Assembly (NCBI GenBank): GCA_018268315.1
Contig: JAFDWU010000001.1
Coordinates: 652,324 to 716,323 of the forward strand
Length of the DNA stretch: 64,000 nt
Direction: 5' to 3'
Origin: Armatimonadota bacterium
GTDB taxonomy: Bacteria; Armatimonadota; Fimbriimonadia; Fimbriimonadales; Fimbriimonadaceae
Below, in pieces: positions 14,050 through 17,460 of the stretch. Both the position numbers and the translations under genes were made by a program. Position 1 is the stretch's first letter, and every line of letters starts with the position of its first letter. The notes under the pieces were generated by a model that did no database searches, was not told the DNA's origin, and saw only the letters and a program-made list of their open reading frames with translations.

Positions 14050-14565
14050 ATGAAACAACGTCTTGCTTTCGCCCTTGCCCTCACTACTCTGGCCGCCCTC
14101 TCGCTTGGCCAAGCCGACGGCACAAGGCAGGTAAAGGTTAACCAGCCCCTCCCGAAGTTTTCATTGACCACGGCTTCCGGGAAGAAATTTACCAACGCCA
14201 ACCTGAAAGGCAAGGTAGCGATCATCGATTTTTGGGCTACCTGGTGTCTGCCATGCAAGAAATCCATTCCGATGCTGCAGTACCTGCATAACAAATACAG
14301 CAGCCAGGGCTTAGTGGTCGTGGGCGCAGAAGTGCAAGACGAAGGCGCTAGCAAAGAGAGCCTTGACCGCTTCATCAAGAAGCAAGGCATGACTTACACA
14401 GTGACCGTTAAGTCAGACAAGCTTGCCGATCATCTTGGCGTATACGGGCTGCCAACCCTTCTCGTGGTTGACCGCAAGGGCAAGATCGTGAATGTCATCG
14501 AAGGCGTAGAGTTCGGCGAGCAGGACCGCCTCGACACCATGGTTAAGCAGCTTCTAAAGAAATGA
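14050..14565 (+). CDS. TlpA/ResA-like thiol-disulfide oxidoreductase, secreted
   Basis: A protein of 171 aa with an N-terminal signal peptide (Lys-Arg start, hydrophobic core to about residue 20). The thioredoxin fold begins with a P-L-P-K-F-S-L strand and has the active site W-A-T-W-C-L-P-C-K-K near residues 60-69, a CxxC redox centre. A later G-L-P-T-L-L-V-V-D strand supplies the cis-proline. Such proteins reduce or isomerise disulfides in the periplasm, for example during cytochrome c maturation. TAGACA (14038-14043) lies 6 nt before the ATG, so the message is probably leaderless. The next gene is a paralogue whose start overlaps this stop (ATGA). Confidence 0.85.
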   Translation: MKQRLAFALALTTLAALSLGQADGTRQVKVNQPLPKFSLTTASGKKFTNANLKGKVAIIDFWATWCLPCKKSIPMLQYLHNKYSSQGLVVVGAEVQDEGASKESLDRFIKKQGMTYTVTVKSDKLADHLGVYGLPTLLVVDRKGKIVNVIEGVEFGEQDRLDTMVKQLLKK

Positions 14566-15071
14566 GAGCCTTTCTAGTCGCTGCAACGCTGGCGTTCTCG
14601 GGGCTCGCTTATCCGCAGTCGGATATCGCCCTGTCCTACACGGGGTCGAAGTTTCCCACCTTCAAGCTGAAAACGCTTGATGGCAAAACCATTTCAAGCC
14701 AGAAGCTCAAGGGCAAGGTTTACATCGCCGATTTCTGGGCCACTTGGTGCGGCCCGTGTCGCCGAACGATCCCGATTCTTATCGAAATCAAGAAGAAGTA
14801 CAAGGGCAAGGCGTTCGAAGTCGTGGGGATGGATCTCTCCGAGCGAATGCCCAAGGAAGGCATCCAGAAATTTGTTTCGGCGATGGGCATGAACTACCCG
14901 GTTGCCCTTCAAGCCGAGTCGGTTGCGCGGCAGATATACGCCGCGAGACTGCCGACCCTCTATGTCGTGGACAAGAAAGGCGTCGTCCGATTCGGTGAGT
15001 CTGGAATGATGTACGACCCAGACGGCTCCAAGCTTTCCAAGCTCGTTGGTCAGCTCATCGCCGAGCGCTAA
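14562..15071 (+). CDS. TlpA/ResA-like thiol-disulfide oxidoreductase, paralogue
   Basis: A protein of 169 aa with a signal peptide (hydrophobic core to about residue 18) and a thioredoxin fold with active site W-A-T-W-C-G-P-C-R-R near residues 59-68. The cis-Pro segment is A-R-L-P-T-L-Y-V-V-D. The preceding gene encodes a similar protein and overlaps by 4 bp, so they form a translationally coupled pair. The CxxC dipeptides differ (L-P against G-P), which usually changes redox potential and may reflect a donor/acceptor or oxidase/reductase split. That division of labour is inferred. It overlaps the convergent tgt stop by 4 bp. Confidence 0.85.
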   Translation: MRAFLVAATLAFSGLAYPQSDIALSYTGSKFPTFKLKTLDGKTISSQKLKGKVYIADFWATWCGPCRRTIPILIEIKKKYKGKAFEVVGMDLSERMPKEGIQKFVSAMGMNYPVALQAESVARQIYAARLPTLYVVDKKGVVRFGESGMMYDPDGSKLSKLVGQLIAER

Positions 15072-16171
15072 GCCTTGGCGTACCTCTCGACAAGCTGGGG
15101 CCAGCTTCCGTTCTGGATCGCATCCCTGATTTCCTGCATCAGCCTGGCGTAGAAGCGCAGGTTATGGAGGGTGGCAAGGCGAGGACCTAAGGTTTCGCCC
15201 GCCTTAAAGAGGTGGCGCATGTAAGCTGCGCTGTATCGCTCGGTTTCGGGGAAGACCGAGCCTTCATCCACCGGGCCCTCGTAGTCCTCAAACTCCTTTC
15301 GTAGCACGTTCACCCTTCCATGTAGCGTATAAAGCGCGTGGTGCCGTGCCATGCGAGTGGGTAATACGCAGTCAAAGAGATCGATGCCGCTCGCCACCGC
15401 GTGAATAATGTCGCCCGGATGCCCGACGCCCATCAGATAGCGAGGCTTGTGCTTGGGCAGAAGTGGCGCGGTGAGCGCCACCACTGGGTGTTGCATCTCG
15501 GTCGGCTCGCCCACGCTCACGCCGCCAATCGCGCAGCCGTCGCATTCTAGTTCGGAGATGTAAGCAGCGGACTCACGCCGTAAGTCCTCGTGCACCCCGC
15601 CCTGAACAATCGCGAACACTCCTTGAGTCCCTCTGGCGGCGCTCAAAGAGCGCCGGGCCCAGGCGTGGGTGCGCTTCATCGCTGACGCGGCTTCATCGTA
15701 GGTGCAAGGGTAGGGCGGGCACTCGTCCAGCACCATGCTGATATCCACGCCTAGCTGCGCTTGGATTTGAATGGAGCGCTCGGGCGTAAGATGCATTTGC
15801 GAGCCGTCCAGATGGGAGCGGAAGGTGACCCCCTCGTCGTCGATCTTCCGCATCTTAGAAAGGCTCATCACCTGGTAGCCACCCGAGTCGGTTAGGATCG
15901 GCCCCTTCCAACTCATAAACTTTCCCAGCCCGCCAAGCCGCTCGATAAGCTCGCTTCCGGGTCGCAGGGCCAAGTGGTAAGTGTTCGAAAGAATTAGCTC
16001 AAAGCCGAGGCGCTCTAAGTCCTCGCTGCCAAGGGTCTTAACCGTTCCCTGAGTCCCAACCGGCATGAAGGCGGGAGTTTCCACGGTTCCGTGTGGAGTA
16101 TGCATGCGCCCCCTACGGGCGCCAGTGTAAGGGCACTCGGAAAGCAGTTCAAACTTAATGGATCCCGCCAT
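15068..16171 (-). CDS. tgt: tRNA-guanine transglycosylase (Tgt) lacking the zinc-site cysteines
   Basis: A protein of 367 aa. Tgt exchanges G34 for preQ1 in GUN-anticodon tRNAs. Catalytic and base-binding motifs are present: L-T-D-S-G-G-Y-Q-V-M-S-L, S-M-V-L-D-E-C-P-P-Y-P, G-G-V-S-V-G-E-P, and F-D-C-V-L-P-T-R with the nucleophilic Asp. The C-terminal zinc knot normally reads C-x-C-x-x-C plus a later His. Here residues 305, 307 and 310 are Ser, Phe and Thr, while the His (336, in T-L-H-N-L) is kept. The ATG at 16171 lies just after the stop of the DUF4143 ATPase, with TTGGAG upstream, so the two are probably co-transcribed. Identity is firm; the zinc loss is a real departure from most members. 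Confidence 0.92.
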   Translation of the reverse strand: MAGSIKFELLSECPYTGARRGRMHTPHGTVETPAFMPVGTQGTVKTLGSEDLERLGFELILSNTYHLALRPGSELIERLGGLGKFMSWKGPILTDSGGYQVMSLSKMRKIDDEGVTFRSHLDGSQMHLTPERSIQIQAQLGVDISMVLDECPPYPCTYDEAASAMKRTHAWARRSLSAARGTQGVFAIVQGGVHEDLRRESAAYISELECDGCAIGGVSVGEPTEMQHPVVALTAPLLPKHKPRYLMGVGHPGDIIHAVASGIDLFDCVLPTRMARHHALYTLHGRVNVLRKEFEDYEGPVDEGSVFPETERYSAAYMRHLFKAGETLGPRLATLHNLRFYARLMQEIRDAIQNGSWPQLVERYAKA

Positions 16172-16174
16172 CAG

Positions 16175-17404
16175 CTAGCTCCAAAGCGCGGAAATCGGGA
16201 GTGCGAACAGCTTGTCGGACACCGCGACCGCTTCGCTGCCGGTATGAAGAACAACCCCCCGGTGGAACTTGCCCTCCGCGAGCTCATCAAGAAAGCGCAG
16301 GCCCTCAAAATCCTCGGTCGTGGCGGCAGGAGCGTTGCGAACTTCGACCCCTACAAGGCTACCGTTTCGAGCTTCAAGAACGAAGTCGACCTCTTTCTGC
16401 TTCACCGTCCGCAAGTGATAGATCGACGGCTTAACTTTGCCCACTTTTGAAAGCTTCGTCAGTTCGTTGGCGACCAGAGTCTTCAGCACCGGCCCCGTGC
16501 GCATCCAGTCTCTAAACACGCCCTCTTCGTCTAGCCCGCATAAGTGGCAAAGCAGCCCGGTGTCAACCATATACGCTTTAGGCGCTTTAGCAAGCCGGAC
16601 GTCCATGCTGGCCGACCAAGCGGGCACATAGTGAACCAACATGAGGGCCTTCAGCAGGTCGACGTAACGAGTTAAGGTTGTGTGGGGGATGCCGGTGTCC
16701 AGGCTGAGGCCAGAGAGGTTGAGAGTTGCGCCGCTCCGCGCCGCCATCAGCGAGAGGAGGCGCGGCAACTGGGTCAGCCCGCTAATGTTAGCAAGGTCGC
16801 GAACATCGCGGTCTAACAATGTTCGTACATAGGCTTGAAACCAAGCATTGCGTCGGTCTTGTCCCTTCCTTTGCACCACTTCTGGGTATCCACCGCGTAC
16901 TGCCCTCAGTGCAAGGTCGTCTTGCCCAATACAGTGCAGTGAAGACGCCGAATCGCCGCCAAATAGCCAATCGGTAAAGTTATGCGGGCTCGACTCCAGC
17001 TCAGCCTGGGAAAAGGGAAAGAGGTCGATGGGCTCCATGCGGCCGGCCAAAGAATCGGCAATCTTCGGCATCAGCAGCACGTTCGCTGAACCGCTAAGCA
17101 GATACTGGCCGGAGCGGCGGTCCTTATCCACCAGAAGCTTCATCGTCAGGAACAGACCGGGCGCGCGTTGAACTTCATCCAGCACCACCGGCGCCTTCCG
17201 GCTCAGAAGAAAGCCCTTGGGGTTCTCGGTGGCTTCCGCCAGCATCACCGGGTCGTCCAACGTCACGTAGTTTCCGGCAAATCGCTCTCGGGCGATTTCT
17301 TGCGTGAGGGTCGACTTGCCGGTTTGACGGGGTCCGACCACCAGCACCACCGGCGTATCGTCAAGGGCATCGTTCACCAGTTGGTAGGCGGCGCGCTTGA
17401 CCAT
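16175..17404 (-). CDS. DUF4143-type AAA ATPase
   Basis: About 409 aa from the ATG at 17402-17404 (an in-frame GTG at 17422 would add six residues). Walker A is V-V-G-P-R-Q-T-G-K-S-T-L near residues 23-34, and Walker B-like A-P-V-V-L-D-E-V-Q-R-A-P is near 70-81. These are the hallmarks of the AAA_14/DUF4143 family. A winged-helix segment (I-S-G-L-T-Q-L-P-R-L-L-S-L-M-A-A-R) leads into the C-terminal DUF4143 nuclease-like part with T-V-K-Q-K-E-V-D-F-V-L-E. That D/E-x-K-like patch resembles a PD-(D/E)xK core. Family function is poorly known; roles in DNA repair or as antitoxin-like or defence ATPases have been suggested. It adjoins tgt with no evident link. Confidence 0.85.
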   Translation of the reverse strand: MVKRAAYQLVNDALDDTPVVLVVGPRQTGKSTLTQEIARERFAGNYVTLDDPVMLAEATENPKGFLLSRKAPVVLDEVQRAPGLFLTMKLLVDKDRRSGQYLLSGSANVLLMPKIADSLAGRMEPIDLFPFSQAELESSPHNFTDWLFGGDSASSLHCIGQDDLALRAVRGGYPEVVQRKGQDRRNAWFQAYVRTLLDRDVRDLANISGLTQLPRLLSLMAARSGATLNLSGLSLDTGIPHTTLTRYVDLLKALMLVHYVPAWSASMDVRLAKAPKAYMVDTGLLCHLCGLDEEGVFRDWMRTGPVLKTLVANELTKLSKVGKVKPSIYHLRTVKQKEVDFVLEARNGSLVGVEVRNAPAATTEDFEGLRFLDELAEGKFHRGVVLHTGSEAVAVSDKLFALPISALWS

Positions 17405-17460
17405 GAGAGGTAAGGATAACACAGCCCCGCCGCAATTAACTTGGCTGGTAACCTCAATCC

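Follow-up and report, generated by a model that had tools for sequence, protein, structure and literature searches.

The window, the 64,000-nucleotide stretch of DNA analysed here, encodes a tRNA guanosine(34) transglycosylase (Tgt) without the C-x-C-x-x-C zinc motif. Judged from its descent, its residues and its pathway, the protein is a Tgt, but a zinc-less variant and not a typical zinc Tgt. It is very likely a functioning enzyme with a metal-free C-terminal subdomain and not a decaying one, because the replacement residues are strongly kept, the catalytic Asp residues are invariant, and QueF, QueA and QueG are present. We infer that the enzyme is active, that it is independent of zinc, and that Phe307 is packed in the former metal pocket.

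The tgt gene and its zinc loop

The tgt gene and the codons discussed below are listed in Table 1. The frame runs uninterrupted from an ATG start to the stop, in agreement with the initial annotation, which had seen no frameshift; the plus strand of the same interval contains stops throughout. The product matched PF01702 with 481 bits and, over its whole length, the bacterial profile TIGR00430 with 457.1 bits, above the curated equivalog cut-off of 306.75. The score against the archaeal TIGR00432 was 139.2 bits, below the cut-off of 350.

Table 1. Coordinates of the tgt gene and of its diagnostic codons in the window.
Feature	Position	Strand	Basis
tgt, tRNA guanosine(34) transglycosylase, 367 aa, zinc-less variant	15068..16171	minus	ORF and profile matches
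Codons 305-310 (S-V-F-P-E-T), place of the C-x-C-x-x-C zinc motif	15242..15259	minus	counted from the start codon at 16171
Codon 336 (His), sole retained zinc-ligand position	15164..15166	minus	alignment and codon reading
Codon 267 (Asp), at the position of the Z. mobilis catalytic nucleophile Asp280	15371..15373	minus	
Codon 95 (Asp), at the position of the Z. mobilis general acid/base Asp102	15887..15889	minus	
Codons 313-320: Tyr313, Tyr317 and His320, dimer hot-spot places of Trp326, Tyr330 and His333 of Z. mobilis	15212..15235	minus	

The alignment to the Zymomonas mobilis TGT has no gap across the zinc loop. In it, the Cys ligands correspond to Ser305 (codon TCG), Phe307 (TTC) and Thr310 (ACC), and His336 (CAT) is retained; these are the substitutions that had been noted initially, and the codons confirm them. 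Both Asp95 and Asp267 are encoded by GAC. A shifted register that would place other Cys or His residues in the pocket, named beforehand as a possible refutation, is excluded by the ungapped loop and by the position of the last Cys of the protein, C268. A second, zinc-type Tgt substituting for the zinc-less one was also rejected, as the source genome was searched and contains a single Tgt.

The window Tgt shares the whole-length fold, the catalytic Asp residues and the preQ1 pocket with the Z. mobilis TGT (TIGR00430; PDB 1pud and others), as well as the dimer hot-spot residues and the same pathway genes. It differs in having no C-x-C-x-x-C, with His alone left of the four zinc ligands. Eukaryotic QTRT1 and QTRT2 and archaeal ArcTGT belong to the same superfamily, as seen in PDB sequence matches. 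Unlike the window Tgt, QTRT1 and QTRT2 retain the zinc site (PMC6165067), and QTRT2, with altered catalytic residues and zinc kept, is its mirror image.

An AAA_14/DUF4143 ATPase gene (16175-17422, minus strand) ends 3 bases ahead of the tgt start codon. On the other side, two adjoining thioredoxin-like (Redoxin/AhpC-TSA) genes occupy 14050-15071 of the plus strand with a mutual overlap of 4 bases, and the second of them is convergent with tgt, with a 4-base overlap. Ten neighbour proteins were sought around tgt in ten named relatives, some of which have short flanks, and none of them turned up there; the same search found no relative of the ATPase next to tgt. No operon argument is available.

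Zinc-motif loss within Armatimonadota

A tgt match was found in 83 of the 85 genomes of the window's own family, Fimbriimonadaceae, including all 70 with a completeness of 90% or more and a contamination of 5% or less. One match is cut by a contig end, and 82 can be read through the zinc loop. C-x-C-x-x-C is present in none of these 82, the window's own included; the three ligand places contain no Cys in 79 of them and one Cys in 3. The motif is likewise absent from all six Tgts of a sister family. When all four ligand positions are counted, the 88 sequences of the two families hold one Cys or His in 85 cases and two in 3. Among 94 other Armatimonadota loci, which were given or chosen from a larger set (a search of 291 genomes gave matches in 275), all four ligands are present in 91 and one is replaced in 3 (CACH, CECH and CCCY). 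Excluded from the counts were L164 (a fragment), L165 (cut ahead of the zinc loop), L002 (a second, CCCH Tgt), two short fragments of G033 and G013, the Fimbriimonadaceae genomes G041 and G059 and the sister-family genome G153 (no match), and the sister-family genome G152 (a 36-aa fragment).

In a quick tree of 105 loci hand-picked from 449, with SH-aLRT as its sole support measure and 35 of its 102 inner branches open, the two zinc-less families formed one clade (SH-aLRT 97) when the zinc columns were left out. The clade is nested among the CCCH sequences of three zinc-type families of the same order. One supported clade and a lineage-wide absence indicate one ancestral loss, not an error; as far as these sequences tell, the loss in the two families is a single ancestral event. 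The alignment to related Tgts that had been proposed as a check returned a lineage-wide loss.

Several unusual loci were observed. L002 (genome G074, contig C25) is a CCCH Tgt in a genome that also has a zinc-less one; its contig measures 10 kb, and the assembly is 73% complete. L002 is at most 55% identical to any compared sequence, and a contaminant and an acquired paralog could not be told apart. In L260 and L261 (G209 and G211), the second Cys alone is replaced, by Ala or Glu, and a Cys immediately precedes the third (WCC), which gives the appearance of a ligand displaced by two places. L262 (G213) retains all three ligand Cys residues but has a Tyr in place of the zinc His. L232 (G086), also from Armatimonadota, groups with proteobacterial Tgts, possibly by transfer or a long-branch effect.

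Constraint, predicted structure and competing explanations

Among the 88 sequences of the two zinc-less families, Phe307 is present in 87, Ser305 in 84 and His336 in all. Position 310 is Thr in 65, Leu in 13 and Val in 6. Mean pairwise identity is 0.709 for the whole protein, 0.68 for residues 299-320 and 0.864 for the four former ligand sites. The zinc loop overall does not exceed the average in conservation, whereas the replaced positions do. D95, C151, Q190, G216, G217, M247 and D267 are invariant and D149 is present in 87 of 88, so the initial description of the catalytic and base-binding motifs as intact extends to the whole lineage. The dimer hot-spot residues described for Z. mobilis TGT in the accessible part of PMC5395182 are Trp326, Tyr330 and His333; in their places, Y313 is found in 85 of 88 sequences, and Y317 and H320 in all.

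Modelling of the C-terminal loop had been suggested as a further check. An AlphaFold2 run with a 32-row alignment gave a confident model of the standard fold, with a mean pLDDT of 91.5 (86 for residues 301-310 and 95 for 311-320), although AlphaFold may return a well-known family fold even if the loop sequence would not fold in that way. The TIM-barrel fold and the C-terminal subdomain are present in the predicted model, and VIA-align 2 superposed 364 residues on Z. mobilis TGT (Z 52.9, rmsd 1.6, 48% identity).

The genes for QueF, QueA and QueG are all found in the window's own genome. QueA is present in 110 of the 113 genomes of the order, and in Fimbriimonadaceae QueG is present in 83 and QueF in 80 of 85. 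The substrate of QueA is made only by Tgt. Thus, if the single Tgt were dead, QueA and QueG would have no use.

The best explanation is that the protein would be the ordinary Tgt of the queuosine pathway of this organism, replacing guanine 34 of tRNAs with GUN anticodons by preQ1 via Asp267 and Asp95, with a C-terminal zinc subdomain that folds without zinc. Ser, Phe and usually Thr took the places of the three Cys ligands in the common ancestor of Fimbriimonadaceae and the sister family. It is hypothesized that Phe307 fills the vacated pocket, packed against His336, and that Ser305 and Thr310 contribute hydrogen bonds. Such packing would take over the stapling done elsewhere by zinc-thiolate bonds. 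The zinc-independent fold itself is well supported by the lineage-wide loss, by the lack of a substitute conserved Cys or His in the loop, by the confident standard-fold model, and by the same loss elsewhere, including S. meliloti with its genetic evidence of a working tgt.

It is unlikely that a metal is still bound at a site rebuilt from other residues and His336. The invariance of His336 would suit such a site, as would two His residues that are enriched in the lineage and lie closest in sequence to the loop: H277 is present in 88 of 88 sequences and H278 in 73 of 88, the latter in only 2 of the 94 other Armatimonadota. H277 is, however, common in zinc-type relatives (34 of 94), and the loop at 299-320 has acquired no conserved Cys or His in the two families. 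C268 and H320 are conserved family-wide but also occur in zinc-type Tgts, H320 being at a dimer contact, and the ligand positions themselves, as counted above, nearly always hold a single Cys or His. A relaxed or decaying enzyme heading to loss of function is less probable again. PMC6165067 counts the zinc domain among two hallmarks of TGTs, and loss of a hallmark site could be read as decay; but the replacement residues are better conserved than the protein average, the catalytic residues do not vary, tgt is missing from none of the well-completed family genomes, and QueA and QueG are retained. Of the two possibilities offered by the initial annotation, a zinc-independent fold or a relaxed enzyme, the former is favoured by the lineage-wide loss and the model, while the latter disagrees with the high identity at the ligand sites.

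The mostly RHH sequence at positions 276-278, where many relatives have RNG or RHG, could point to an altered substrate or base instead of the exchange of G34 for preQ1. This is slightly less probable still, since the preQ1-pocket residues and R273/R276 are retained and QueF, QueA and QueG co-occur with the gene. A sequencing or assembly error in the source genome, another refutation named in advance together with retention of CxCxxC in close relatives, can practically be dismissed: 81 other family members also lack the motif, many of them in assemblies of one or few contigs. As for the cause of the loss under a zinc-independent fold, zinc sparing is disfavoured. QueD, QueC and FolE1 are also said to be zinc enzymes in the accessible text of PMC9508795, so that loss of zinc from Tgt alone would not free the pathway of it.

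The same loss in other bacteria and its meaning

Among 80 related loci, the Tgts of Bartonella, Nitratireductor, one member of Spirochaetales and one of Gracilibacteria also lack the motif. The groups below (Rhizobiales, a spirochaete order and a Gracilibacteria order) are named after the named locus in each. C-x-C-x-x-C is absent from all 106 Rhizobiales Tgts examined (L272-L331, L404-L449), which comprise 36 of the 143 matching genomes of an order sample (the 30 best scoring and 6 from the low end) and 70 of 71 of a family sample. In the spirochaete order, 21 of 37 Tgts are CCCH and 16 lack the motif; in the Gracilibacteria order, 28 of 37 are CCCH and 9 lack it. Named records without the motif include Sinorhizobium meliloti Ak57, Shinella sp. 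and Methylobacterium bullatum, and those with it Paracoccus versutus, Sphingomonas parapaucimobilis, Magnetococcus massalia and E. coli.

The Rhizobiales Tgts (for example those of S. meliloti Ak57, Bartonella, Nitratireductor and M. bullatum) resemble the window Tgt at two places: position 305 is Ser in 99 of 106, and position 310 holds a small residue (Ala 62, Ser 23, Thr 13). Their loss is a separate one. The middle Cys at 307 is kept (103 of 106) and the His at 336 is mostly lost (Asn 66, Ala 21, His 6), the reverse of the window's lineage. From these sequences, the replacement appears partly convergent. On the 105-row tree, the zinc-motif trait requires at least eight changes, five of them forced by well-supported branches, although change counts alone do not separate loss from gain. 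Loss is the natural reading, as the zinc ligands are common to E. coli, human QTRT1/QTRT2 and other Armatimonadota.

Insertion mutants of S. meliloti 1021 in queC, queF and tgt, as described in the available text of PMC3568095, cause no change of the HeLa cytoskeleton in low serum and are poor in nitrogen fixation. In the HeLa assay, preQ1 rescues the queC and queF mutants but not those in tgt or queA; the queA mutant has little or no symbiotic phenotype, which its authors left open (PMC3568095). This pattern matches the prediction for a working Tgt, with polar effects of the insertions possible and with the zinc-less sequence coming from strain Ak57 and the mutants from strain 1021. Several PLSDB "plasmid" records with tgt are of chromosome size (CP090106.1 and others; S. 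meliloti "pSymB", 3.72 Mb) and are probably mislabelled chromosomes.

Mutation of the zinc ligands of E. coli TGT reportedly abolished activity or tRNA binding. In the accessible portions of the literature, TGT activity is said to require zinc, with citation of E. coli enzyme work (PMC9508795), and the zinc ligands are called highly conserved (PMC4425180). Reviews and structure papers treat the zinc as required, and apparently metal-free natural versions exist. The enzyme and its pathway are known; the structural variant is new, and the novelty lies in its generality, whole clades with an intact pathway lacking a supposed hallmark. No report of a zinc-less Tgt was found in the accessible TGT and queuosine literature on zinc, Agrobacterium, Rhizobiales, Sinorhizobium or Armatimonadetes, most subscription journals lying outside the search.

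The Cys motif alone is insufficient to call Tgt genes broken or metal-dependent, and Tgt should not be listed as a zinc-sensitive step in every bacterium. Apparently metal-free natural Tgts, one of them in the genetically tractable S. meliloti, make the role of zinc in folding, tRNA grip or dimer contact directly testable by loop swaps. As the loss recurs in several unrelated bacterial lineages, the zinc of Tgt is probably dispensable, a structural staple that can be replaced. It is likely that the zinc site is an optional staple of the fold, discarded at least five times with the pocket filled differently each time and the queuosine pathway kept; all Rhizobiales examined, Fimbriimonadaceae and its sister family would have a zinc-free Tgt.
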